Shown here one piece after another: positions 7,909-52,409 of a stretch of DNA of 64,000 bases. The notes under the pieces are model-generated. The model did not search any database, had not been told where the DNA came from, and was given only the letters and a program-made list of their open reading frames with translations. A program made the position numbers and the translations under genes. The stretch comes from Duganella sp. CF517 (GTDB taxonomy: Bacteria > Pseudomonadota > Gammaproteobacteria > Burkholderiales > Burkholderiaceae_D). Each line of letters starts with the position of its first letter. The stretch's first letter is position 1. The DNA lies in the NCBI RefSeq assembly GCF_900110275.1, contig NZ_FODC01000007.1, positions 186,001 to 250,000 of the forward strand. Direction: 5' to 3'.

Positions 7909-8079
7909 GGGATTGTCGATCGTGACCGCGTCGCGGTCTTTTTTTCCGGCACATCCCTCGTGTGCCGAACAAAAAAGAAACAGGCGCGGCCAAGGGCGGA
8001 CGATGCACCGGCGCGGCGGTGCGCGCCGGCAGTGCCTCCTCCGCCAATACGACAGGTCCCGGCCGCTTGCTTCCATCCG

Positions 8080-8282
8080 TTCTGGCCGGTATCCGGGCTA
8101 ACAGGACAAATCACCCCGCCTTCCCATGCCGAACGCACAGTGGACTGTTGGACTGACCGCCGGCACATCACAACACGCCGGCGCCTGTTTTACCGTTGCG
8201 GGGACAGCACACGTTGACCGCTGGCCTCCCAGCGCGTGTTTCCCGTTTAACTGCGGTCAAGGCATGACCGCGAGCACCAAAA
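8080..8282 (-). promoter_or_regulatory. Cobalamin (AdoCbl-type) riboswitch
   Basis: Read on the minus strand, the leader contains the conserved elements in order. TTAAACGGGAA corresponds to the TTAATAGGGAA block (about 8250-8240). GCTGTCCCCGCAACGGTA (8208-8191) is the B12 box, with one change from the canonical core. AGTCC follows near 8154, and AGCCCGGATACCGGCC (8099-8084) corresponds to the 3' GCC-GGA-ACC-GCC element. Between this and the receptor start lie GC-rich inverted repeats (around 8025-7981) and a TGTTTCTTTTTT tract near 7982-7971, a plausible expression-platform terminator. Cobalamin is expected to reduce receptor expression. Confidence 0.93.
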
Positions 8283-8362
8283 CACCACGATGATACTGTG
8301 TGGCGGCGTCCATGGCAATTTGATTAACAGGGAGGCGCCGATGCAAGAACTACAATAAAGAC

Positions 8363-18784: not shown

Positions 18785-18808
18785 GGGGTCAAGTCTGTCA
18801 TTGCGACA
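18785..18808 (+). repeat. Solitary REP-like element
   Basis: The 24 bp beginning GGGGTCAAGTCTGTCATT match the arm of the inverted doublet at 43805-43889 with a few substitutions. The following bases (GGCTGATCCG...GACGAGTTCCCC) resemble that doublet's loop, but the second arm is absent. It lies directly downstream of recN. Confidence 0.6.
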
Positions 18809-39165: not shown

Positions 39166-39795
39166 ATGACCATGCGTAATTTACGTATCGTGGTTGTCAA
39201 CGCCATCATCCACGCCGGCGACGAGGATGACGAGTCGTTGCGCGCCCAGGTCGAACGGGCCAGGGTGCTGCGTATCGGCCTGCTGGAAGCGGGCTACGAC
39301 ATCGTCGCCTCGCTGCCGCCGGACATGTACCTGCCCGAGCGGATCGCCCAGCTGCAGCCCGATATGATCATCGTCGACGCCGAATCGGACGCCCGCGACG
39401 TCCTCGAACACATCGTCATCGCCACCCGCGACGAGCGCCGCCCCATCGTCATGTTCACCGAAAGCGCCGACACCGAGAGCATGGATGCGGCCATGGCGGC
39501 CGGCGTGTCGGCCTATATCGTGGCCGGCCTGCAGGGCGACCGCATCAAGCCGGTGCTGCAGGTGGCGCTGGCGCGCTTCAAGCGCGAGCAAAAGCTGCTC
39601 GAGGAGCTGTCCGACACCAAGAGCAAACTGGCCGAGCGCAAGGTCATCGAGCGCGCCAAGGGCTTGCTGATGGAGCGCCAGCGCTTCACCGAGGAGCAGG
39701 CCTACCAAAAGCTGCGCGGTATGGCGATGAGCAAGAACCTCAAGCTCTCCGAGGTGGCCCAGCGCATCCTCGACGTCGAAGACCTGCTAGGTTAA
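39166..39795 (+). CDS. nasT: NasT-type ANTAR antitermination regulator
   Basis: 209 aa. The N-terminal receiver-like domain keeps the phosphoacceptor-position Asp (MIIVDAES, about residue 70) but lacks the usual acidic pair after the first strand, where it has an acidic insert (HAGDEDDESL). The C-terminal ANTAR RNA-binding domain is clear (ERKVIERAKGLLMERQ ... AYQKLRGMAMSKNLKLSEVAQRILD, about 148-203). NasT proteins bind a two-hairpin RNA in nitrate-assimilation leaders and prevent termination; both leaders in this window (39955 and 44079) carry that motif. The usual partner nasS, normally immediately upstream, is absent. Confidence 0.93.
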   Translation: MTMRNLRIVVVNAIIHAGDEDDESLRAQVERARVLRIGLLEAGYDIVASLPPDMYLPERIAQLQPDMIIVDAESDARDVLEHIVIATRDERRPIVMFTESADTESMDAAMAAGVSAYIVAGLQGDRIKPVLQVALARFKREQKLLEELSDTKSKLAERKVIERAKGLLMERQRFTEEQAYQKLRGMAMSKNLKLSEVAQRILDVEDLLG

Positions 39796-39924: not shown

Positions 39925-39940
39925 TGGCACGGACATTGCA
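39925..39940 (+). promoter_or_regulatory. Sigma-54 promoter of the nrt operon
   Basis: CTGGCACG-N4-TTGCAT: TGGCAC at 39925-39930, five bases, TTGCA at 39936-39940, a full match to the RpoN -24/-12 consensus. Implies NtrC-type nitrogen control. The 11-mer CTCCCTCTGTA (39906-39916) just upstream recurs before the second sigma-54 promoter. Confidence 0.92.
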
Positions 39941-39954
39941 TAGTCCGTAGGCAA

Positions 39955-40056
39955 GCGCAATGATGCGCCGATGAGCCTTGCCAACGGCGGTGGGGCACAC
40001 CAGACAACGACGTCTACCGAACATGAATGCGTTCATGCGGGGTAGGCGTTTTTTTT
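39955..40056 (+). promoter_or_regulatory. ANTAR-responsive antitermination leader of the nrt operon
   Basis: P1 is GCGC-AATGAT-GCGC (39955-39968). P2 is AGAC-AACGAC-GTCT (40002-40015). Both have six-base loops with A at position 1 and G at position 4, the defining feature of ANTAR-bound RNA. P2's 3' strand is also part of the 5' arm CGTCTACC (40011-40018) of a terminator. That arm pairs with GGTAGGCG (40041-40048), encloses a CATGAA/TTCATG inner hairpin, and is followed by eight T (40049-40056). P2 and the terminator are mutually exclusive, so NasT binding would allow transcription into nrtA. Confidence 0.9.
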
Positions 40057-40091
40057 GTCCGAACGGTTTTACTGTCTACAGAGGGATAGTC

Positions 40092-41387
40092 ATGAACGAT
40101 AAGAAGCTACCAGCAGATTCCGCCTTGCCACCGGCCGCCAGCGACGTTAATGTTTCGCGCAGAGCGGCAATTCAAAAAGTGATTCATGGTGCGGGTTTAG
40201 TAGCGGGAGGAAGTATGTTGGGTTTATCGACGGGTGGCGTGTGGGCGGCGGGTTCGGACAAACCGGAAAAGGAAGAAATCAAGATCGGCTTTATTCCACT
40301 GACCGATTGCGCGTCGGTGGTCATGGCCTCGGTCCTGGGCTTCGACAAAAAGTACGGCGTCAAATTCGTGCTCAGTAAAGAGGCCTCGTGGGCCGGCGTG
40401 CGCGACAAGCTGGCCAACGGCGACCTCGATGCGGCCCATGTGCTGTATGGCCTGCTGTACGGCGTCCAGATGGGCATCGGCGGCCAGAAGAAGGACATGG
40501 CGGTGCTCATGGGCCTCAATAACAACGGCCAGGCGATCACGCTGTCGAAGAAGCTGGCCGACAAGGGCGCCGTCGATGGCGCCTCGCTGGCGAAGCTGAT
40601 GAACTCCGAAAAGCGCGAGTACACCTTCGCCCAGACCTTCCCGACCGGCACCCACGCGATGTGGTTGTACTACTGGCTGGCCGCCAACGGCATCAACCCG
40701 ATGAAGGACGCCAAGGTCATCACCGTGCCGCCGCCGCAGATGGTGGCCAATATGCGGGTCGGTAACATGGACGGCTTCTGCGTGGGCGAGCCATGGGGCC
40801 ACCGCGCCATCATGGACGGCATCGGCATCACCGCCACCACCACCCAGGACATCTGGAAGGACCACCCGGAGAAGGTTCTCGGCTCGACGCTGGAATTCGC
40901 CAAGAAGAACCCGAACACCTGCCGCGCGATGATGGCCGCCATCCTGGAGGCGAGCAAATGGATCGACGCCTCGCTGGCCAACAAGAACAAGATGGCCGAG
41001 GTCATTGCCGACAAATCCTATGTCAACACCAGCAAGGATGCGATCGACCAGCGCATCCTGGGCCGCTACCAGAATGGCCTGGGCAAGACCTGGGACGACC
41101 AGAATCACATGAAGTTCTACAACGACGGCCTGGTGAACTATCCGTTCCTGTCGGACGGCATGTGGTTCATGACGCAGCACCGCCGCTGGGGCCTGCTGAA
41201 GGACGATCCTAACTACCTGGCCGTGGCCGCCTCGGTCAACCAGATCGATTTGTACAAGGACGCGGCGACCATGACCAAGACGCCGATTCCGAAAAGCCCG
41301 CTGCGGACATCGAAGCTGATGGACGGCTCGGTGTGGGACGGCAAAGACCCGAAAGCCTTCGCCGCCTCGTTCAAGATCAAAGCCTGA
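40092..41387 (+). CDS. nrtA: Nitrate ABC transporter substrate-binding protein (NrtA/CmpA type)
   Basis: 431 aa from ATG 40092; earlier in-frame starts fall inside the leader terminator. A twin-arginine motif (VNVSRRAAIQ) and hydrophobic stretch lead to an export site near GGVWA, so it is periplasmic. That distinguishes it from the cytoplasmic sensor NasS. KIGFIPLTDCASVVMASVLGFDKKYGV is the NrtA/CmpA hallmark; DLDAAHVLYGLLYGVQMGIG and GNMDGFCVGEPWGHRAI line the ligand pocket. First gene of nrtABC under sigma-54/ANTAR control. Confidence 0.94.
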   Translation: MNDKKLPADSALPPAASDVNVSRRAAIQKVIHGAGLVAGGSMLGLSTGGVWAAGSDKPEKEEIKIGFIPLTDCASVVMASVLGFDKKYGVKFVLSKEASWAGVRDKLANGDLDAAHVLYGLLYGVQMGIGGQKKDMAVLMGLNNNGQAITLSKKLADKGAVDGASLAKLMNSEKREYTFAQTFPTGTHAMWLYYWLAANGINPMKDAKVITVPPPQMVANMRVGNMDGFCVGEPWGHRAIMDGIGITATTTQDIWKDHPEKVLGSTLEFAKKNPNTCRAMMAAILEASKWIDASLANKNKMAEVIADKSYVNTSKDAIDQRILGRYQNGLGKTWDDQNHMKFYNDGLVNYPFLSDGMWFMTQHRRWGLLKDDPNYLAVAASVNQIDLYKDAATMTKTPIPKSPLRTSKLMDGSVWDGKDPKAFAASFKIKA

Positions 41388-42321: not shown

Positions 42322-43128
42322 ATGGACGATCCAAAATTCATCGATGTCGAAGGCGTGGAAATGGTCTTCCACACCAAAAAAGGTGTGTTCCACGCGCTGC
42401 GTGAAATCGATCTGACGGTGCGCAAGGGCGAATTCATCACCCTGATCGGGCACTCGGGCTGCGGCAAATCGACCTTGCTCAATCTGATCGCCGGGCTGCT
42501 GAAACCAACCGACGGCGTGCTGCTGTGCGCCAACCGCGAGATCGCCGGGCCGTCGCCGGAGCGCTCGGTGGTGTTCCAGAACCACTCGCTGCTGCCTTGG
42601 CTGACCTGTTACGAAAATGTCCACCTGGGCGTCGAGCGGGTGTTCGGCAAGGCCGAATCGAAGGCGCAGCTGCGCGAGCGCACCATGCAGGCGCTGTCGC
42701 TGGTGGGCCTGACGGCCGCTGAGACCAAGCGTCCGCACGAGATCTCGGGCGGGATGAAGCAGCGCGTCGGCATCGCCCGGGCGCTGGCGATGGAGCCGAA
42801 AGTGCTGCTGATGGACGAACCGTTCGGCGCCCTCGACGCGCTCACCCGCGCCCACCTGCAGGACGAACTGCTCAAGATCGTCGCCGCCACCAAATCCACC
42901 GTGGTGATGGTCACGCACGATGTCGACGAGGCGGTGCTGCTGTCTGACCGCATCGTCATGATGACCAACGGCCCGGCCGCCACCATCGGCGAGATCGTCG
43001 ATGTACAGCTCGAGCGTCCGCGCGACCGCGTCGCGCTGGCGCAGGACGCGCGCTACACCGAGTACCGCACGGCCGTGTTGGAGTTCTTATACCGGAAACA
43101 GGCGCATCCCGCGAAGGAAGCGGCGTAA
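42322..43128 (+). CDS. nrtC: Nitrate ABC transporter ATP-binding protein (NrtD/single-domain NrtC type)
   Basis: 268 aa with Walker A GHSGCGKSTLLNLIAG, Q-loop VFQNHSLLPWLTCYENV, signature [18 protein letters not shown], Walker B VLLMDEPFGALDALTR and switch MVTHDVDEAVLLSDRIVMMTNGP. It lacks the C-terminal NrtA-like regulatory domain found in cyanobacterial NrtC, and only one ATPase gene is present, so it presumably works as a homodimer. Preceded by AAGGAG; its stop overlaps the next start (TAATG). Confidence 0.94.
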   Translation: MDDPKFIDVEGVEMVFHTKKGVFHALREIDLTVRKGEFITLIGHSGCGKSTLLNLIAGLLKPTDGVLLCANREIAGPSPERSVVFQNHSLLPWLTCYENVHLGVERVFGKAESKAQLRERTMQALSLVGLTAAETKRPHEISGGMKQRVGIARALAMEPKVLLMDEPFGALDALTRAHLQDELLKIVAATKSTVVMVTHDVDEAVLLSDRIVMMTNGPAATIGEIVDVQLERPRDRVALAQDARYTEYRTAVLEFLYRKQAHPAKEAA

Positions 43129-43799
43129 TGGACCTGTCCACGGGCACGCTGCCGCCTCCCGGCGCCGCCCCCAAGGCGCTGACCGGCGAGGTATTCAGCG
43201 CCTTGATCAACCTCTCGGGGCGGCGCCGCTTCACCTCGCAGCGCATCGTGCTGTACGCGCTGCTGGCGTCGCAGGGGCAGGAGGAGGGCGCGGCAACCGC
43301 GCGGGAGGCGCTGGCGCTGTTCCGGGGCGCCCACAAGTCGCTGTTGAGCGAGGCGGACGGCCTGCCGGGCGTATTTTGTCCGGAGCTGCGCGAAGCCTAC
43401 TTCGGCAAAATGGACGGCGACCGCCAGATCGTCGCCTTCGCCGACCTGGGCGAGCGCACGCTGAACGCGATCGCGCGCGGTTCGGCGCAGGCGGCGGAGC
43501 TGCTGGAGGAGCTGGTGCGTATCACAACGCCAACGTTGGGAATCCTGAACCAGATCACCGGCATCTACGAGGAGCAGGCCAAGCAGAACGCGCGCCTGGT
43601 GCGCAAGCAGCTGCGCGGCGTGATCACCGATATCGAGACGATCAACCGCCAGGCGCGGATGGTGGCCTTCAACGCCCGCATCGTCGCCGCGCGCGCCGGC
43701 GCGGCCGGCAAGGAGTTCTCGGTGGTGGCGGGCGTGCTGTCCAGCATCAGCGGCGAAATCGACGAAATGGTGGCCGCCGCCCTGGCCGCCGCCGGCTAA
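43128..43799 (+). CDS. Soluble P-box (PilJ/NIT-like) protein with an MCP-tip-like C-terminus, candidate nitrate sensor
   Basis: 223 aa, no signal peptide or membrane segment. Its start overlaps the nrtC stop (TAATG), so it belongs to the nrt operon. The N-terminal segment VFSALINLSGRRRFTSQRIVLYALLAS matches the PilJ_N/NarX P-box: GRRRFTSQR lines up with GSLRMQSYR of NarX, conserving both nitrate-binding Arg positions and the Ser. The C-terminal ETINRQARMVAFNARIVAARAGAAGKEFSVVAG resembles the hairpin tip of chemoreceptors, but the conserved Glu of EAARAGE is replaced, so chemotaxis coupling is doubtful. With nasS missing, it may control NasT. Function inferred. Confidence 0.8.
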   Translation: MDLSTGTLPPPGAAPKALTGEVFSALINLSGRRRFTSQRIVLYALLASQGQEEGAATAREALALFRGAHKSLLSEADGLPGVFCPELREAYFGKMDGDRQIVAFADLGERTLNAIARGSAQAAELLEELVRITTPTLGILNQITGIYEEQAKQNARLVRKQLRGVITDIETINRQARMVAFNARIVAARAGAAGKEFSVVAGVLSSISGEIDEMVAAALAAAG

Positions 43800-43804
43800 C
43801 ACCC

Positions 43805-43889
43805 GGGGTCAAGTCTGGCATTCGGACACAAGCTGGACCGTATCGCGGCTTTACGGACGAGCTCCTGTCCGAATGCCAGACTTGACCCC
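43805..43889. repeat. REP doublet (REPIN-like) with perfect 24-bp arms
   Basis: The arm GGGGTCAAGTCTGGCATT... (43805-43828) is the exact reverse complement of 43866-43889, around a 37-bp loop. It lies just after the P-box gene stop and before the next nitrogen-regulated promoter. A diverged single arm with a matching loop portion sits at 18785. No RAYT transposase is in the window. As RNA it would also fold into a long hairpin able to end or stabilise the nrt transcript. Confidence 0.85.
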
Positions 43890-43954: not shown

Positions 43955-44049
43955 CATGCACCGCAACATCGCACCGCGACAAGCTTGTAATTTCTTTACT
44001 GAAACTTCACAAACACGTTCTCCCTCTGTAGCGCCAATATCCGGACCAT

Positions 44050-44065
44050 TGGCACGCCTCTTGCA
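44050..44065 (+). promoter_or_regulatory. Sigma-54 promoter of the nitrate/nitrite reductase operon
   Basis: TTGGCACG-N4-TTGCAT, a full RpoN consensus match (TGGCAC 44050-44055, TTGCA 44061-44065). The 11-mer CTCCCTCTGTA recurs 20 bp before it (44020-44030), 11 bp, about one helical turn, further away than at the nrt promoter. Confidence 0.93.
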
Positions 44066-44078
44066 TTAGTTGAAGCAG

Positions 44079-44197
44079 GGGATCAACGGCGATCCCTCCC
44101 AAATACATACGGCCGGTCCAAAGAAGGACCGGCAGGACAACGGCGTCCGCCTGACCTGGTTTAGAACACCTTGGTTGAGCGGGCGCCTTTTTGTTTT
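44079..44197 (+). promoter_or_regulatory. ANTAR-responsive antitermination leader of the narK-nirBD-nasA operon
   Basis: P1 GGGATC-AACGGC-GATCCC (44079-44096) and P2 GGAC-AACGGC-GTCC (44135-44148, extended by GGC/GCC across an A bulge) carry identical hexaloops with A1 and G4. P2's 3' strand lies within the terminator arm GGCGTCCGC (44142-44150). That arm pairs with GCGGGCGCC (44179-44187), followed by TTTTTGTTTT. A separate perfect hairpin GCCGGTCC/GGACCGGC (44112-44133) occupies the P1-P2 linker. NasT would stabilise P1/P2 and release the operon. Confidence 0.93.
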
Positions 44198-44213: not shown

Positions 44214-45518
44214 ATGGCCAGCAAAGCTACCAGCATCAAGCTCTTCTCGATCTCAACGCCGCAGATGCGGGCGTTCCACCTGACCTGGATGGCGTTCTTC
44301 GTCTGCTTCTTCGCATGGTTCGCCTGCGCGCCGCTGATGCCTGTCATTAAAGGCGAATTCGGTCTGAGCGTCGCGCAGATCGCCAACATCAACATCGCCG
44401 CCGTCGCCATCACGATCCTGGTGCGCCTGATCGTCGGCCCGCTGTGCGACCACTTCGGCCCGCGCAAGGCCTATACCGGCCTGCTGCTGCTCGGCTCCAT
44501 CCCGGTGATCGGCGTGGCCTTCGCCCAGAGCTACGAGAGCTTCCTGTTCTTCCGCCTGGGGATCGGCGCGGCCGGCGCCAGCTTCGTCATCACGCAGTAC
44601 CACACCTCGGTGATGTTCGCGCCTAAAGTGGTCGGCACCGCCAACGCGGCCGCCGCCGGCTGGGGCAATGCCGGCGGTGGCGTCGCGCAGGCTGTCATGC
44701 CGCTCTTGATGACGGCGATGGTCATGCTGGGCGTCTCCGAGACCTTCGGCTGGCGCGCCGCGCTGATCGTGCCGGGCGTCCTGATGATCATCATGGCCGG
44801 CGTCTACTACCGCTACACCCAGGACTGCCCGCAAGGTAATTACAGCGAGCTGCGCGCCGCCGGCATCCCGATCGAAGGCGGCAAGAAGGGCGGCTGGGAG
44901 AGCTTCAAGCTGGCCGCCGCCAACTACCGCGTATGGCTGCTGTTCATCACCTACGGCGCCTGCTTCGGCATCGAGATCTTCATCCACAACATCGCCGCGA
45001 TCTACTACGTCGATCACTTCAAACTGACCCTGGGCCAGGCCGGCATGGCCGCCGGCAGCTTCGGTTTGCTGGCGCTGTTCGCCCGCGCATTGGGCGGCTG
45101 GGCCTCGGACAAATTCGCCGCCAAGGGCAACCTGAATAACCGCGTCACACTGCTGTTCGTGCTGATGCTCGGCGAAGGCGCCGGCCTGCTGATGTTCGCC
45201 CACGCCGGCACCGCCGCGCTGGCGATCGGCGCGATGCTGATCTTCGGCCTGTTCACCCACATGGCTTGCGGCGCGACCTACGCCGTGGTGCCGTTCGTCG
45301 ACAAGCGCGCCCTGGGCGGCGTGGCCGGCATCATCGGCGCCGGCGGCAACGTCGGCGCGGTGGCCGCGGGCTTCCTGATGAAGGGCCTGGGCGACACGCA
45401 GCAGACCTTGAGCATCCTGGGCATCGTCGTCGCCGCGACCGCGCTGTGCGCGCTGGCCGCCCGCTTCGGCACCTCCGCCATCGAAGAATCCGTCTCCGCT
45501 ACCAAACTGGCAGCTTAA
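44214..45518 (+). CDS. MFS nitrate/nitrite transporter (NarK/NasA family)
   Basis: 434 aa with about 12 membrane segments. It opens with AFHLTWMAFFVCFFAWFACAPLMPVI, typical of nitrate/nitrite porters. The nitrate signature WGNAGGGVAQAVMPL lies near residue 150, and a second Gly-rich GIIGAGGNVGAVAAGFLM near 380. First gene of the reductase operon, 17 bp after the leader's T-tract, providing a second nitrate uptake route besides nrtABC. Confidence 0.95.
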   Translation: MASKATSIKLFSISTPQMRAFHLTWMAFFVCFFAWFACAPLMPVIKGEFGLSVAQIANINIAAVAITILVRLIVGPLCDHFGPRKAYTGLLLLGSIPVIGVAFAQSYESFLFFRLGIGAAGASFVITQYHTSVMFAPKVVGTANAAAAGWGNAGGGVAQAVMPLLMTAMVMLGVSETFGWRAALIVPGVLMIIMAGVYYRYTQDCPQGNYSELRAAGIPIEGGKKGGWESFKLAAANYRVWLLFITYGACFGIEIFIHNIAAIYYVDHFKLTLGQAGMAAGSFGLLALFARALGGWASDKFAAKGNLNNRVTLLFVLMLGEGAGLLMFAHAGTAALAIGAMLIFGLFTHMACGATYAVVPFVDKRALGGVAGIIGAGGNVGAVAAGFLMKGLGDTQQTLSILGIVVAATALCALAARFGTSAIEESVSATKLAA

Positions 45519-45535
45519 GCTTAAAGGAACCTATC

Positions 45536-48067
45536 ATGAAAATCATCGTTATCGGCCACGGCATGGTCGGCCACAAATTCCTGGAAAGCCTGGCCGCCAG
45601 CGGCAAGACCAACCTGCAGGTGACGGTGCTGTGCGAGGAAGTGCGTCCCGCGTACGACCGCGTGCACCTGTCGGAATTCTTCTCTGGTAAAACCGCCGAA
45701 GACCTGTCGCTGGTGAAGCCCGGTTTCTTCGAACGCGACGACATGGTGCTGCGCCTGAACACCCGCGCCACCGCCATCGACACCGCCGCCAAGACCGTCA
45801 CCACCGGCGACGGCGACGTGCTCCCGTACGACAAGCTGGTGATCGCCACCGGTTCCTATCCGTTCGTGCCGCCGCTGCCGGGCAAGGAGCGCAAGGATTG
45901 CTTCGTCTACCGCACCATCGAGGATCTGGAAGCGATGATGGAATGCGGCCAGCGCTCCAAGACCGGCGTCGTCATCGGCGGCGGCCTGCTGGGCCTCGAA
46001 TGCGCCAAGGCGCTGCGCGACCTGAAGCTGGAAACCCACGTGGTCGAATTCTCGCCGCGCCTGATGGCGGTGCAGGTGGACGATGGCGGCGCGCGCGTTC
46101 TGCGCCGTAAAATCGAAGAGCTGGGCGTGACCGTCCATACCGGCAAAAACACCACCGCCATCGTCGACGGCGTCGATGGCACCCACCGCATGGAGTTCGC
46201 CGACGGCGGCCATCTGGACGCCGACATGATCGTCTTCTCGGCCGGTATCCGCCCGCGCGACATGCTGGCGCGCGAATCCGGCCTGACCGTCGGCCCGCGC
46301 GGCGGCATCGAAATCAACAACAACTGCGTCACCTCCAACCCGGACGTCTACGCCATCGGCGAATGCGCGCTGTGGGGCGGCTTGATCTTCGGCCTGGTGG
46401 CGCCGGGCTACGAGATGGCGCGCGTCGCGGCCAAGCACATGCTGGGCGAGGCGGGCGAATTCGCCGGCGCCGACATGAGCACCAAGCTGAAATTGATGGG
46501 CGTGGACGTGGCCAGTATCGGCGACCCGCACGGCAACATCGCCGGCAGCCGCTCGTACCAGTTCACCGACGAGCGCAAACAGATCTACAAGAAGATCGTC
46601 GTTTCCGACTGCGGTAAATACCTGCAAGGCGCGGTGATGGTCGGCGACGCCGCCGAATACGGCACGCTGCTGCAGATGATGCTGAATAAAATCGAACTGC
46701 CGGAATCGCCGGAGTTCCTGATCCTGCCGCAGTCGGACGGCGCCGCCAAGCCTGGCCTGGGCGTGGACGCTTTGCCGGAAGGCGCGCAAATCTGCTCCTG
46801 CAACGACGTCTCCAAGGGCGCGCTGTGCGCGGCGGTGGCCGCCGGCGCCTGCACCATCGGCGATCTGAAAAGCTGCACCAACGCCGGCACCTCGTGCGGC
46901 GGCTGCGTGCCGCTGGTGACGCAGGTGATGAAGGCCGAGATGAAAAAGCTCGGCATGGCGGTCAACAACCACGTGTGCGAACACTTCGCCTATTCGCGCC
47001 AGGAGATGTTCCATCTGATCAAAGTCGGCCAGATCAAGTCCTTCGACGACCTGCTGGCGAAGCACGGCAAGGGCCTCGGTTGCGACGTGTGCAAACCGCT
47101 GGCCGCCAGCATCCTGGCGTCGGTGTGGAACGACTTCGTGCTGAAGAAGGAACATGCCAGCCTGCAGGACACCAACGACTACTTCCTCGGTAATATCCAG
47201 AAGGACGGCACCTACTCGGTCGTTCCACGCATGCCGGGCGGCGAGGTGACGGCCGACGGTCTGATCGCGGTCGGCATGGTCGCCAAGAAGTACCAGCTGT
47301 ACACCAAGATCACCGGCGGCGCCCGCGTCGACCTGTTCGGCGCCCGCGTCGAGCAGCTGCCGCTGATCTGGGAAGAACTGATCGCCGCCGGCTTCGAATC
47401 CGGCCACGCCTACGGCAAGTCGCTGCGCACGGTCAAATCCTGCGTCGGCTCGACCTGGTGCCGTTATGGCGTCGACGATTCGATCGGCCTGGCCATCGAA
47501 CTGGAAAACCGCTACAAGGGCCTGCGCACGCCGCACAAGATCAAGTTCGGCGTGTCCGGCTGCACCCGCGAGTGCGCCGAGGCGCAGGGCAAGGACGTCG
47601 GCATCATCGCCACCGAAAAAGGCTGGAACCTCTACGTGTGCGGCAACGGCGGCATGAAGCCGCGCCACGCCGAATTGCTGGCGACGGACCTGGACAAGGC
47701 CACGCTGGTGCAGTACATCGACCGCTTCCTGATGTTCTACACCCGCACCGGCGACCGTCTGCAGCGCACCAGCACCTGGCGCGAGAACCTGGAAGGCGGC
47801 CTCGATTACCTGAAGCAGGTCGTCGTGCAGGACAAGCTGGGCATCGCCGCCGACCTGGAAGCGGACATGCAGCACGTCGTCAACACCTACGCGTGCGAGT
47901 GGAAGGAAGCCGTCGAGAATCCGGAGACGCGCAAGCGCTTCCGCACCTTCGTCAACAGCGAGAAGGGCGACGACAACGTCGTCTTCATGGAGGAACGCGG
48001 CCAGATTCGTCCGGCCACCGTGGAAGAACGCAAACGCGTGATTCCGATCGCCGTCAGCGCGGCTTGA
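45536..48067 (+). CDS. nirB: Nitrite reductase (NADH) large subunit
   Basis: 843 aa from ATG 45536, preceded by AAAGGA. N-terminal FAD/NAD(P)H domains (MKIIVIGHGMVGHKFLE; VVIGGGLLGLECAKAL), then a [2Fe-2S] BFD-like Cys region (ICSCNDVSKGALC ... SCTNAGTSCGGCVP, about 420-465). The C-terminal siroheme/[4Fe-4S] reductase domain has ligand Cys in CVGSTWCRYG (about 635) and CTRECAEAQGKDVG (about 675). Reduces nitrite to ammonium in the cytoplasm with NirD. Second gene of the nasT/sigma-54 controlled operon. Confidence 0.98.
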   Translation: MKIIVIGHGMVGHKFLESLAASGKTNLQVTVLCEEVRPAYDRVHLSEFFSGKTAEDLSLVKPGFFERDDMVLRLNTRATAIDTAAKTVTTGDGDVLPYDKLVIATGSYPFVPPLPGKERKDCFVYRTIEDLEAMMECGQRSKTGVVIGGGLLGLECAKALRDLKLETHVVEFSPRLMAVQVDDGGARVLRRKIEELGVTVHTGKNTTAIVDGVDGTHRMEFADGGHLDADMIVFSAGIRPRDMLARESGLTVGPRGGIEINNNCVTSNPDVYAIGECALWGGLIFGLVAPGYEMARVAAKHMLGEAGEFAGADMSTKLKLMGVDVASIGDPHGNIAGSRSYQFTDERKQIYKKIVVSDCGKYLQGAVMVGDAAEYGTLLQMMLNKIELPESPEFLILPQSDGAAKPGLGVDALPEGAQICSCNDVSKGALCAAVAAGACTIGDLKSCTNAGTSCGGCVPLVTQVMKAEMKKLGMAVNNHVCEHFAYSRQEMFHLIKVGQIKSFDDLLAKHGKGLGCDVCKPLAASILASVWNDFVLKKEHASLQDTNDYFLGNIQKDGTYSVVPRMPGGEVTADGLIAVGMVAKKYQLYTKITGGARVDLFGARVEQLPLIWEELIAAGFESGHAYGKSLRTVKSCVGSTWCRYGVDDSIGLAIELENRYKGLRTPHKIKFGVSGCTRECAEAQGKDVGIIATEKGWNLYVCGNGGMKPRHAELLATDLDKATLVQYIDRFLMFYTRTGDRLQRTSTWRENLEGGLDYLKQVVVQDKLGIAADLEADMQHVVNTYACEWKEAVENPETRKRFRTFVNSEKGDDNVVFMEERGQIRPATVEERKRVIPIAVSAA

Positions 48068-48078
48068 GGAGAATACAA

Positions 48079-48426
48079 ATGCATCGCGATATTCAAACTG
48101 ATAACTGGATCGCCGTCTGCAACCTGGACGACATCGTGCCCAACACTGGAGTGTGCGCACTGCTGAACAACGCGCAGATCGCCGTCTTCCACGTCAACGA
48201 CGGCGGCCCGCGCGTGTTCGCCATCGATAACTACGATCCGAACTCGGAAGCCGCAGTGCTGTCGCGCGGCCTGGTGGGCAGCCTGGGCGAACGCATCGTG
48301 GTCGCTTCGCCGATCTACAAGCAGCACTTCGACCTGCAAACCGGCGAATGCCTGGAAGCGCCGGCCAACTCGGTCGGCACTTATCCGGCACGCGTGGCAG
48401 ACGGCAAAGTCTGGGTAGGCCTATGA
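48079..48426 (+). CDS. nirD: Nitrite reductase small subunit
   Basis: 115 aa, a Rieske-like fold without the cluster ligands, as usual for NirD: NWIAVCNLDDIVPNTGVCALLNN, VFAIDNYDPNSEAAVLSRGL, IVVASPIYKQHFDLQTGECLEAP. ATG 48079 is 11 bp after nirB; its stop overlaps the next start by ATGA. Required for NADH-dependent nitrite reduction. Confidence 0.97.
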   Translation: MHRDIQTDNWIAVCNLDDIVPNTGVCALLNNAQIAVFHVNDGGPRVFAIDNYDPNSEAAVLSRGLVGSLGERIVVASPIYKQHFDLQTGECLEAPANSVGTYPARVADGKVWVGL

Positions 48427-49661
48427 AATCCCCGGAGCGCGTGGAATCGAAGCCTGCGCTGGTCGTCATCGGCAACGGCATGGCCGGCATGCGCACGGTC
48501 GAGGAGCTGCACAAACTCGATCCGGACATGTACGACATCACCGTGTTCGGCGCCGAGCCGCATGGTAACTACAATCGCATCCTGCTGTCGCCGGTGCTGG
48601 CCGGCGAGAAGACGATGGACGACATCATGCTCAACACGCGTGAGTGGTACGTCCAGCATGGCATCACGCTGCACGCCGGCGATCCGGTCGAGCATATCGA
48701 CCGCCGCAATCGCATCGTGCGCGCGCGCTCCGGCCTGGAAGTGCGTTACGACCGCCTGCTGATCGCCACCGGCTCCAAGCCGTTCATCATTCCCGTACCG
48801 GGCCACCAGCTTCCCGGTGTATTGGCCTTCCGCGATATCCAGGATGTGGAATCGATGCTGGAGGCGGCGCGCAACCACAAGCACGCGGTGGTCATCGGCG
48901 GCGGCCTGCTGGGACTCGAAGCGGCCAACGGCCTGCAACGCCAGGGCATGTCCGTCACCGTGGTCCACGTGACCGACGCGCTGATGAACCAGCAGCTCGA
49001 CAAGCCCGCCGCGCAACTGCTGCAAAAGGCGCTGGAGGACAAGGGCCTGAAATTCAGATTGAACGCGCAGACCGCCGAAATCGTCGGCACCGATCGCGCC
49101 ACCGCCGTGCGCTTCAAGGATGGCAGCGAGATCCCGGCCGATCTTGTGGTGATGACCGCCGGCGTGCGCCCGAACATCGAGCTGGCCAAGGCGGCCGGCT
49201 TGCACTGCGACCGCGCCATCATCGTCGACGACACCTTGCAAACCTACGATCCGCGCATCTACGCGGTCGGCGAGTGCGTGCAGCACCGCAGCGCGACGTT
49301 CGGCCTGGTGGCGCCGATCTGGGACCAGGCGCGCGTTTGCGGCGCCCACCTGGCCGGCGCCGGCGTGCGCCGCTACGTGCAGCAAACTTCGCCCACACGC
49401 CTGAAGGTCACCGGTGTAGACTTGTACTCGGTCGGCGATTTCGTCGGCGGCGAGGGCTCCGAGGACCTGGTGCTGCGCGATGCGCGGCGCGGCGTCTACA
49501 AGCGGCTGGTGTTGAAGAACAACCGCGTCACCGGCGCCGTGCTGTATGGCGACGTCAAGGACGGCCCTTGGTATTTCGGCCTGATCCAGAACAACACCGA
49601 CATCACCTCGATCCGGCAAACCCTGTTATTCGGCGAGGCGCTCAGCGCCAGGGCCGCGTGA
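48423..49661 (+). CDS. FAD-dependent NAD(P)H oxidoreductase, likely electron donor to the assimilatory nitrate reductase
   Basis: 412 aa. It resembles the N-terminal half of NirB and rubredoxin-type reductases: ALVVIGNGMAGMRTVEEL (FAD), AVVIGGGLLGLEAANGL (NAD(P)H), then YAVGECVQHR near residue 280. No Fe-S cluster motif is present, in contrast to nirB. Its ATG overlaps the nirD stop and nasA follows 24 bp later. It is therefore probably the NasB-type reductase that feeds electrons to NasA. Confidence 0.9.
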   Translation: MKSPERVESKPALVVIGNGMAGMRTVEELHKLDPDMYDITVFGAEPHGNYNRILLSPVLAGEKTMDDIMLNTREWYVQHGITLHAGDPVEHIDRRNRIVRARSGLEVRYDRLLIATGSKPFIIPVPGHQLPGVLAFRDIQDVESMLEAARNHKHAVVIGGGLLGLEAANGLQRQGMSVTVVHVTDALMNQQLDKPAAQLLQKALEDKGLKFRLNAQTAEIVGTDRATAVRFKDGSEIPADLVVMTAGVRPNIELAKAAGLHCDRAIIVDDTLQTYDPRIYAVGECVQHRSATFGLVAPIWDQARVCGAHLAGAGVRRYVQQTSPTRLKVTGVDLYSVGDFVGGEGSEDLVLRDARRGVYKRLVLKNNRVTGAVLYGDVKDGPWYFGLIQNNTDITSIRQTLLFGEALSARAA

Positions 49662-49685: not shown

Positions 49686-52409
49686 TTGAACCTGTCCCAA
49701 GACCATCTGTCAGTCCGCACCACCTGCGCCTATTGCGGCGTCGGTTGCGGTGTGAGCGCCACCCCCAAGGGCGACGGCACGGTCACCATCGCCGGCGACA
49801 AGCTGCACCCCGCGAACAAGGGGCGCCTGTGCGTCAAGGGTTCGGCGCTGGGCGAGACGGTTGGCCTGGACGGCCGTCTGCTGTATCCGCAGGTTCGCGG
49901 CGATGAGGGCCTGCGCCGCGTCTCGTGGGACGAGGCGCTGGACAAGGTCGCCGGCACCTGGCGCGCCATCATCGACGAGCATGGCCCGGACGCGGTGGCC
50001 TTGTACGTCTCCGGGCAATTGCTGACCGAGGACTACTACGTCGCCAACAAGCTGATGAAGGGTTACATCGGCAGCGCCAACATCGACACCAACTCGCGCC
50101 TGTGCATGTCGTCGGCGGTGGCCGGCTACAAGCGCGCCTTCGGCGAGGACCTGGTGCCGCTGTGCTACGACGATCTGGAACTGGCCGACATGGTGGTGCT
50201 GGTCGGCTCCAACACCGCCTGGTGCCATCCGATCCTGTTCCAGCGCATCCTGAAGGCCAAGGAGCAGCGGCCGGAGATGAAGATCGTCGTCATCGACCCG
50301 CGCCGCACGGCGACCTGCGAGCTGGCCGACCTGCACCTGCCGGTGAAGGCGGGCACCGACGTCTGGCTGTTCAACGGCTTGCTCAGCTATCTGAATCGCA
50401 TCGGCGCGGTCGATCCGGCCTTCGTGGCCGACCACACCAACGGCGTCGACGCGGCGCTCGCCACCGCCAACGCCGATTGCAGCGACCCGGCCGTCGTGGC
50501 CAGGATCTGTCGCATCGAGCTGCCGGTGCTGATGGAGTTCTACGAACTGTTCGCGTCCACGCACAAGACCATCACCGCCTACTCGATGGGCGTGAACCAG
50601 TCGTCTTCCGGCACCGATAAGGTCAACAGCATCATCAACTGCCACCTGATCGGCGGCCGCATCGGCCAGCCGGGCATGGGGCCGTTCTCGATCACCGGCC
50701 AGCCCAACGCCATGGGCGGGCGCGAAGTGGGCGGCCTGGCCAACATGCTGGCGGCGCACATGGACCTGGACCGCGCCGACCACCGCGAAGTGGTGCAAAC
50801 CTTCTGGGAATCGCCGGCCATGGCCGACAAACCAGGCCTGAAGGCGGTCGATCTGTTCAAGGCGATCGAGGACGGCAAGGTCAAGGCGGTGTGGGTAATC
50901 TCGACCAATCCCGTGGTCAGCATGCCGGACGCCGACCAGGTGCGGCGCGCGCTGGAAAAGTGCGAATTGGTGGTCGCCACCGACATCATGCAAAACACCG
51001 ACACCAACGCCTACGCCGACGTGCTGCTGCCGGCGCTGGGCTGGGGCGAGAAGGAGGGCACGGTCACCAATTCCGAGCGCCGAATTTCGCGCCAGCGCGC
51101 CTTCCTGCCGGCGCCGGGCGAAGCCATGGCCGACTGGAAGATCCTGGCGCTGTTCGCGCAGCGCATGGGTTTCAACGGTTTCGACTTCGCCGGCGCCAAC
51201 AGCGTGTTTGACGAACACGCGCGCCTGAGCGGCTTCCGCAACAGCGCCGCCGACGTGCCGCGCGCCTTCGACATGTCCGGCCTGGCGCGGTTGAACAAGA
51301 ACGAGTACGACGGTCTCGAACCTATACAGTGGCCGGTGCGCCGCGGCGCCGACGGCGGCTTCGATGTGGAACAGCGGCTGTTCGCCGACAAGCGCTTCGC
51401 CCACGCGGACGGCAAGGCGCGCTTCATCGTTACCGTGCCGCGCGCGCCGGCCAACGCCATCAGCGAGGACTTCCCGCTGGCGCTCAACACCGGCCGCGTG
51501 CGTGACCAGTGGCATACGATGACGCGTACCGGCAAATCCTTCACGCTGGCCGATCACATCTCCGAGTCGTTCGTCGACATCCACCCGCAGGACGCGCTGC
51601 TGCACGGCGTGCGCGAGGGCGACCTGGCGCGCGTCAGCTCCGAGTGGGGCGCGATGGTGGCGCGCGTGCAGCACGGTGGCGGCATCCCGCGCGGCACGGT
51701 GTTCATTCCGATCCACTGGTCGGGCCAGACGTCGTCCGACGCCCGCGTCGGCGCATTGGTCAACCCGGTGGTCGATCCGGTGTCGGGCGAGCCGGAATTC
51801 AAGCATACGCCGGTGCGCATCGAGCAGTTCCGCGTCAACTGGCACAGCTTCATCCTGAGCCGCACCGAAGTGGATCTGGAGAGCGTGGCCCATTGGACCC
51901 GCATCCAGGGCCGCGAATTCGCCCGTTACGAACTGGCCGGCCGCAACACCATCTCCGATTTCGGCCCGTGGGCGCGCGGCGTGCTGGGTGTTGATGATCT
52001 CGATGCCGACTGGCTCGAATACGAAGACCGCACCGCCGGCGTGTACCGCGCCGTGCACGTGGTGAACGACCGCATCGAACAGTGCATCTTCCTGTCGCCG
52101 CGCCAGGACATGCCGTCGCGCGCGTGGCTCGCCAGCCTGTTCGTCAAGGAGCAGTTGAGCGAAATCGACCGCGTCGGCCTGCTGGTCGGCATGCCGGTCG
52201 AGAAGGGCGCCGACACCGGTCCGACCGTGTGCTCGTGCTTCGGCGTGGGCCGCAACACGATCTGCAACGCGATCGTCGAGAAGGACTTGCAGACGGTCGC
52301 GCAGGTGACGTCCTGCCTCAAGGCGGGCGGCAATTGCGGCTCCTGTGTCCCCGAAATCAAGAAGATTCTTGTGCAAACGCGCGTGGAGGCGGCGGAGGCA
52401 AGGTTGTAA
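49686..52409 (+). CDS. nasA: Assimilatory nitrate reductase catalytic subunit with C-terminal BFD-like [2Fe-2S] domain
   Basis: 907 aa, TTG start. The N-terminal [4Fe-4S] motif is CAYCGVGCGV ... GRLCVKG (about residues 14-60). Mo-bis-MGD domains follow: SRLCMSSAVAGYKRAFG with a Cys at the molybdenum-ligand position (about 140), YSMGVNQSSSGTDKVNSIINCHLIGGRIG, and GRVRDQWHTMTRTGKS. The C-terminal 55 residues (CSCFGVGRNTICNAIV ... CLKAGGNCGSCVPEIKKIL) form a bacterioferritin-associated-ferredoxin-like cluster domain. It reduces nitrate to nitrite in the cytoplasm, taking electrons from the adjacent flavoprotein. Last gene of the operon. Confidence 0.96.
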   Translation: MNLSQDHLSVRTTCAYCGVGCGVSATPKGDGTVTIAGDKLHPANKGRLCVKGSALGETVGLDGRLLYPQVRGDEGLRRVSWDEALDKVAGTWRAIIDEHGPDAVALYVSGQLLTEDYYVANKLMKGYIGSANIDTNSRLCMSSAVAGYKRAFGEDLVPLCYDDLELADMVVLVGSNTAWCHPILFQRILKAKEQRPEMKIVVIDPRRTATCELADLHLPVKAGTDVWLFNGLLSYLNRIGAVDPAFVADHTNGVDAALATANADCSDPAVVARICRIELPVLMEFYELFASTHKTITAYSMGVNQSSSGTDKVNSIINCHLIGGRIGQPGMGPFSITGQPNAMGGREVGGLANMLAAHMDLDRADHREVVQTFWESPAMADKPGLKAVDLFKAIEDGKVKAVWVISTNPVVSMPDADQVRRALEKCELVVATDIMQNTDTNAYADVLLPALGWGEKEGTVTNSERRISRQRAFLPAPGEAMADWKILALFAQRMGFNGFDFAGANSVFDEHARLSGFRNSAADVPRAFDMSGLARLNKNEYDGLEPIQWPVRRGADGGFDVEQRLFADKRFAHADGKARFIVTVPRAPANAISEDFPLALNTGRVRDQWHTMTRTGKSFTLADHISESFVDIHPQDALLHGVREGDLARVSSEWGAMVARVQHGGGIPRGTVFIPIHWSGQTSSDARVGALVNPVVDPVSGEPEFKHTPVRIEQFRVNWHSFILSRTEVDLESVAHWTRIQGREFARYELAGRNTISDFGPWARGVLGVDDLDADWLEYEDRTAGVYRAVHVVNDRIEQCIFLSPRQDMPSRAWLASLFVKEQLSEIDRVGLLVGMPVEKGADTGPTVCSCFGVGRNTICNAIVEKDLQTVAQVTSCLKAGGNCGSCVPEIKKILVQTRVEAAEARL

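Follow-up and report, generated by a model that had tools for sequence, protein, structure and literature searches.

A probable NasT-type antitermination leader with three tandem ANTAR-type hexaloop hairpins upstream of narK-nirB-nasA in Duganella sp. CF517

Introduction

The closest described counterparts of the RNA reported here are the dual-hexaloop leaders of the NasT, NasR and EutV systems (PMC3369931, PMC7496416, PMC8934654). Hexaloop recognition by the ANTAR proteins EutV and NasR requires an A at position 1 and a G at position 4, hereafter A1 and G4 (PMC3369931, PMC7496416). How an ANTAR dimer makes use of two hexaloops is disputed. In the 2012 model the dimer bridges both loops (PMC3369931), whereas in the EutV structure of 2022 it contacts a single hexaloop at any moment, and the dimer was proposed to be handed over from P1 to P2 by hopping off a recruitment loop onto that of the antiterminator (PMC8934654). 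The natural eutP linker measures 5-12 nt, and linkers of 3 nt (which hurts induction) or 14 nt are harmful (PMC3369931). Adding 20 nt to the linker abolishes the activity of an EutV leader (PMC8934654).

Nitrate releases NasT, and activated NasT from Paracoccus behaved approximately as a hexamer (PMC3795266). The nasA leader of Paracoccus denitrificans resembles the leader described below in being a nitrate-controlled NasT leader, with a hairpin, HI, that is essential for expression with nitrate; it differs in its second hairpin, HII, which is dispensable for induction (PMC5424462). The nearest precedent for an additional loop is the EutX/Rli55 sRNA, in which an extra single G4 hexaloop reportedly stands beside the dual motif (PMC8934654). 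That sRNA sequesters EutV, whereas the extra loop at our locus sits in a terminator-coupled leader. The ANTAR literature that we examined describes two-hairpin targets; an earlier mention of a third loop may exist in the original papers on the narK RNA and on Azotobacter nasAB.

Results

Three hexaloop hairpins in the narK leader

We examined a window of 64,000 nt from Duganella sp. CF517 (contig NZ_FODC01000007.1, positions 186,001 to 250,000). On its forward strand, an ANTAR leader at 44078-44197 consists of two AACGGC hexaloop hairpins, an 8-bp hairpin between them and a terminator sharing sequence with the second AACGGC hairpin. The first hairpin, H1 (44078-44097; GGGGATC/AACGGC/GATCCCT, 7 bp with one G-U), would form the 5' end of the predicted transcript. 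It is followed by 14 unpaired nucleotides (44098-44111), whose length and sequence vary among relatives, and by H2 (44112-44133), a perfect 8-bp stem, GCCGGTCC/GGACCGGC, with the loop AAAGAA. One nucleotide further begins H3, the P2 antiterminator hairpin (44135-44148; GGAC/AACGGC/GTCC, 4 bp). The intrinsic terminator (44142-44197) is built from a 5' arm, GGCGTCCGC (44142-44150), pairing with GCGGGCGCC (44179-44187), an apical stem and a U-rich tract (44188-44197). Since the 3' strand of H3 (44145-44148) lies within the 5' arm of the terminator, the two structures are mutually exclusive. A sequence-only reading of this locus had seen a second ANTAR leader with two AACGGC loops and H1 as its P1, a P2 whose 3' strand lies inside the terminator arm, and a perfect 8-bp 'linker hairpin' with an AAAGAA loop at 44112-44133. 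All of these features can be read directly from the letters, and our analysis supports an antitermination leader of the NasT/ANTAR type.

Folding gave approximately -27 kcal/mol for the terminator versus -5.4 for H3, and -17.8 kcal/mol for H2. None of 200 dinucleotide shuffles folded as well as the whole leader (z -4.1). Shuffling the linker produced an 8-bp hairpin in 2 per 10,000 cases when every hexaloop was accepted, and in none of 20,000 when A1 and G4 were required. In simulated transcript growth, H1 formed first, then H1 with H2, then all three hairpins up to 44178; the terminator replaced H3 from 44184, and H1 and H2 were folded in both predicted states, with H3 and with the terminator. 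An origin of H2 from a repeat was also considered and rejected, as the window holds no second exact copy.

Promoter, controlled genes and presumed binder

A sigma-54-type promoter, TTGGCACG-CCTC-TTGCAT (whole element TTGGCACGCCTCTTGCAT), lies at 44049-44066 on the same strand. A -24/-12 match was found upstream of 76 of the 78 homologous leaders, and in every case 18-21 nt separate the end of TTGC from the H1 loop. From sigma-54 spacing, transcription is predicted to start near 44076, so that H1 would be the first structure to leave the polymerase.

The first controlled gene (44214-45518, forward strand) encodes a narK-like nitrate/nitrite MFS transporter (TIGR00886, E 5e-87; its 292 bits are slightly below the 312-bit cut-off). 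Downstream in the operon is nirB, for the large subunit of nitrite reductase (45533-48067, forward strand; TIGR02374, NF011565), followed by genes for a NirB-like FAD protein (48423-49661) and a NasC/NasA-like nitrate reductase (49686-52409). The presumed binder is the product of a nasT-like gene (39166-39795, forward strand) some 4.3 kb upstream of the leader, which combines a degenerate receiver (PF00072 under cut-off) with an ANTAR domain (PF03861, E 3e-21). The genome encodes only one further ANTAR protein, on contig C17 (L002), with a receiver and an ANTAR domain and a gene placed beside a thiamine-phosphate-synthase-like gene. Next to nasT, no gene for a NasS-like nitrate sensor could be recognised.

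Several minor features of this region were recorded. The NrtA-like protein encoded at 40092-41387 is the genome's only strong NMT1_2 match and has a twin-arginine-like N-terminus. Between nrtC and narK, 43128-43799 encodes a short protein with a PilJ-like N-terminus and an MCP-signalling-like C-terminus. Just beyond the 3' end of the gene preceding the narK leader lies a perfect, REP-like 24-bp inverted repeat, GGGGTCAAGTCTGGCATTCGGACA (43805-43828 and 43866-43889), of which a third copy with 3 mismatches is found at 18785.

Comparison with the described leaders

The leader shares with NasT, NasR and EutV leaders the A1/G4 hexaloops, the C-G closing pairs (H1 and H3), the overlap of P2 with the terminator, an ANTAR gene close by and nitrate genes downstream. 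Membership of this class asks for at least two hairpins of at least 3 bp with A1/G4 hexaloops, of which there are three here, and for an ANTAR protein in the genome, of which there are two (the PF03861 protein at 39166-39795 and one more). The differences lie in the number of hexaloops (three, not two), in the 1-nt gap between the H2 and H3 stems (19 nt from loop to loop), in a 37-nt H1-H3 linker with H2 inside it, in the AAAGAA loop of H2 and in the U-G closing pairs that H2 has in many relatives. Neither the 1 nt between H2 and H3 nor the 37 nt between H1 and H3 falls within the eutP linker range; that range comes from one EutV leader only, the motif of Ramesh (PMC3369931) allows a variable linker and NasT leaders vary, so it does not define the class.

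The middle hairpin is conserved as an A1/G4 hexaloop

With A1 and G4 in its AAAGAA loop, H2 obeys the ANTAR hexaloop rule, a point that the sequence-only reading had missed, and could thus be a NasT site. We compared 78 narK loci from Oxalobacteraceae and some Burkholderiaceae. The sequence-only reading had made its proposal for the linker hairpin depend on conservation among relatives, and this conservation is found: 76 of the 78 loci show H2 with an A1/G4 loop (the exceptions being L102 and L104). H1 is present in 77 and absent from L059.

A non-redundant set of 41 Oxalobacteraceae narK leaders, from which L059, L102 and L104 had been removed beforehand, was used for position-wise analysis. 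In the H2 loop, A1 and G4 occur in 41/41 and A2 in 40/41, and position 6 is nearly random (17 C, 10 T, 7 A and 7 G). The H1 and H3 loops read AAnGGC, each with A1 and G4 in all 41. Two-sided changes affect three of the eight pairs of the H2 stem, with 93.9% of cells paired, and three of the five pairs of the H1 stem; the H3 stem is invariant. For the structure as a whole, the covariation score and the cells paired exceeded those of 500/500 shuffles and of every slid register, and RNAalifold, unprompted, yielded the same three hairpins. Moreover, 34 of the 41 linkers contain a hairpin with an A1/G4 hexaloop and a stem of 5 bp or longer, versus 0.25 expected from shuffled linkers. The third A1/G4 loop is thus conserved in position and in letters. 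The closing pair of H2 is C-G or, in many relatives, U-G, and that of H1 and H3 is always C-G.

One relative, L059 (Duganella sp. CF458), has lost H1 about 80-140 nt upstream of narK and keeps H2 and H3, separated by 5 nt. The H2-H3 loop spacing of 19 nt compares with P1-P2 spacings of 18 nt in a P11 member and 20-29 nt in most other leaders. By position, H2 is therefore best read as the standard P1, and H1, which the sequence-only reading took for P1, as an extra upstream hexaloop. By loop type, H1 (AACGGC) is like P1 elsewhere and H2 (AAnGAn) is unlike it; since its loop type differs from that of H1 and H3, H2 may be a weaker site.

In six narK leaders from Burkholderiaceae, H1 and H3 are retained with no A1/G4 loop between them, and the third loop is thus not universally needed. 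A plain linker hairpin was found by folding in L162 (GACGGCTA-TGCCATG-TAGCCGTC, whose loop is not ANTAR-like), L164 and L189 and by eye in L104; none is comparably clear in L161 and L102.

Three-hexaloop leaders elsewhere

The first NasT leader of the window, that of nrtABC (39950-40058, forward strand; sigma-54 site at 39925-39939), carries hexaloops AATGAT (39955-39968), AACGGC (39975-39996) and AACGAC (40002-40015), followed by a terminator. The AATGAT loop, on a GCGC/GCGC stem near the predicted 5' end, is a third A1/G4 hexaloop. Across the nrtA leaders of the family, the first hairpin has an A1/G4 loop in about 18 of 30; this loop is kept in the closest relatives, and in one genus the same hairpin bears a non-ANTAR loop.

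At the threshold chosen, a NarK protein search across the order returned just 10 genomes, and leaders were therefore gathered with a P2 pattern and a covariance model. To avoid bias, Burkholderiales leaders were collected by P2 sequence alone (GGACAANGGCGTCC plus a terminator). This gave, outside the family, 32 distinct leaders. Two further A1/G4 hexaloop hairpins of at least 5 bp are present in 10 of them, against about 0.02 expected from shuffles, a single one in 15 and none in 7. Perfect hexaloop hairpins upstream of P2 carry both A1 and G4 in 35 of 49 cases, where chance predicts about 1 in 16. Some upstream hexaloops of this P2-pattern set may be spurious; in L210-L212, for example, cttgctaAATGAT overlaps with the region of the promoter. 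L253, L256 and most of the distant pattern matches that lack a terminator looked like chance.

The covariance model R1, built from narK leaders, found more three-hexaloop leaders, spread over several further families of Gammaproteobacteria. As R1 was built on three-hairpin leaders it favours such leaders; its hits show breadth, and frequencies are taken from the P2-pattern set only. The distal and middle loops of these leaders are mostly 31-40 nt apart, and the middle loop and P2 20-24 nt. Several of the leaders whose downstream neighbour was inspected stand in front of genes for nitrate-binding ABC proteins or for an MFS transporter of the nitrate type. In other families the middle hairpin has an ordinary ANTAR loop, AACGGC or AATGGC.

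Relation to Rfam families

At gathering thresholds, Rfam reported nothing at the narK leader and nothing in 18 related loci. Below threshold, the leader aligned to all 72 positions of RF03032 (narK RNA) with 28.7 bits and E 6e-4 (gathering cut-off 43.2), and matched RF00625 (Pseudomonas sRNA P11) with 22.8 bits (cut-off 70). Both scores being below cut-off, the leader is filed under neither family. The nrtABC leader matched narK RNA with E 0.0065, also under the cut-off.

Even so, both models resemble NasT-type leaders. The RF03032 consensus combines the letters of a sigma-54 promoter with a CC-AACGGC-GG hairpin and, as P2, CGAC-AAAGAC-GUCG, and so looks like a dual-hexaloop leader. Its model pairs the first hairpin only and contains no H2, so that H2 of the window falls in a 29-nt insertion. 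P11 is alike in having a sigma-54-type promoter, an A1/G4 hairpin (AUAGAA) right before GGACAAAGGCGUCC, and a terminator; its stems and sequences differ from those of the window, and Rfam files it as an sRNA and not as a leader. Elsewhere in the window, a cobalamin riboswitch (RF00174, 67.7 bits) lies at 8067-8296 on the reverse strand.

Discussion

We consider the locus to be, probably, a nitrate-responsive NasT (ANTAR) antitermination leader that serves narK-nirB-nasA and carries three ANTAR-type hexaloop hairpins in tandem, a judgement drawn from comparative sequence analysis. As such, it would be a variant of the known NasT/ANTAR antitermination leader; that NasT binds every one of its loops, and in what succession, is our inference. 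Some observations weigh against this reading: the loop type of H2 is unlike that of H1 and H3, its gap to H3 is shorter than the linkers of eut leaders, six Burkholderiaceae leaders have no A1/G4 loop in the middle, and a nasS-like gene was not recognised next to nasT.

Under nitrogen limitation, sigma-54 and NtrC would start the transcript. Without nitrate, NasT would be held inactive and the terminator would form. With nitrate, free NasT may capture H1 upon its emergence, next engage H2, and then pass to, or be joined on, H3, which would be stabilised long enough for RNA polymerase to clear the U tract. H2 would then be the standard P1 partner of H3, and H1 an extra upstream site raising the probability of capture or the local NasT concentration. 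The 8-bp stem of H2 would also shorten the path from H1 to H3, a spacing role that may coexist with docking. Three loops could fit a longer hand-over chain, extra recruitment or a NasT oligomer.

A version of this explanation holds that H1+H3 and H2+H3 are two alternative docking pairs, with redundant P1s of which either is enough, giving graded NasT sensitivity. It does not exclude the three-loop reading and is opposed rather to a true three-site complex. The persistence of both kinds of leader, L059 without H1 and those of Burkholderiaceae without an ANTAR-type H2, speaks for such pairs. Full redundancy, however, predicts frequent loss, and both hairpins are kept in 75 of the 78 narK leaders; we hold this version to be possible, on the doubtful side.

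The sequence-only reading had instead seen H2 as a structural element that brings P1 and P2 closer together. Taken strictly, H2 would be a passive spacer that only brings H1 and H3 within reach of one NasT dimer, its loop sequence being irrelevant. The like loops of H1 and H3 (both AAnGGC) and the different one of H2 suit this idea, as do the linker hairpins without ANTAR letters in the Burkholderiaceae leaders L162, L189 and L164. Moreover, longer eut linkers abolish antitermination, so that one would not expect a 37-nt linker to work if it lacked structure. Yet A1 and G4 are present in the H2 loop of every non-redundant Oxalobacteraceae sequence (41/41) while position 6 drifts, H2 stands at the P1 position, the middle hairpin of other families carries an ordinary ANTAR loop and L059 does without H1. 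A purely passive spacer is thus improbable in our estimation. What stands of the earlier idea is a possible contribution to spacing: comparative evidence favours both docking and spacing roles for the middle hairpin, and in the window's family docking appears the better supported.

It is very improbable that H2 serves the receiver-ANTAR protein of contig C17 and not NasT. The genome does encode this second ANTAR protein, and the AAnGAn loop of H2 is unlike those of H1 and H3; the C17 gene, however, is located elsewhere, has a thiamine-synthesis-like neighbour and is not known to be linked to nitrate, and P11-type leaders have the same kind of loop adjoining P2. Equally remote is a role independent of NasT, in which H2 would stabilise the RNA or assist the terminator, through protection from RNase or through pausing. 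This would suit the high stability of H2 (-17.8 kcal/mol) and its folding in both states but leaves the invariant A1 and G4 unexplained.

Returning to the three-hexaloop antitermination leader, a broader reading is that such leaders form a widespread nitrate-assimilation class, with stepwise loading of NasT from H1 to H2 to H3 or a higher NasT oligomer on the three loops. We put this forward tentatively and think it rather unlikely as a whole. If true, the dual-hexaloop ANTAR model would be incomplete, and narK RNA and P11 would be versions of one switch. Three-loop leaders and their natural variants, L059 without H1 and Burkholderiaceae leaders without an ANTAR-type H2, permit a direct test between bridging and hopping.

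The comparisons suggest that narK RNA, P11 and many unannotated leaders of nitrate operons belong to one regulatory class. P11 is the RNA that, according to one report, makes C. elegans avoid a pathogen in a heritable manner (PMC10977744). L257, which matches P11 strongly (126 bits), precedes a NirB-like gene and folds with the hexaloops AACGTG, ACAGAG and AAAGGC. With its promoter, three A1/G4 hexaloops, terminator and NirB-like ORF directly downstream, this P11 RNA resembles a terminated NasT-type nirB leader.
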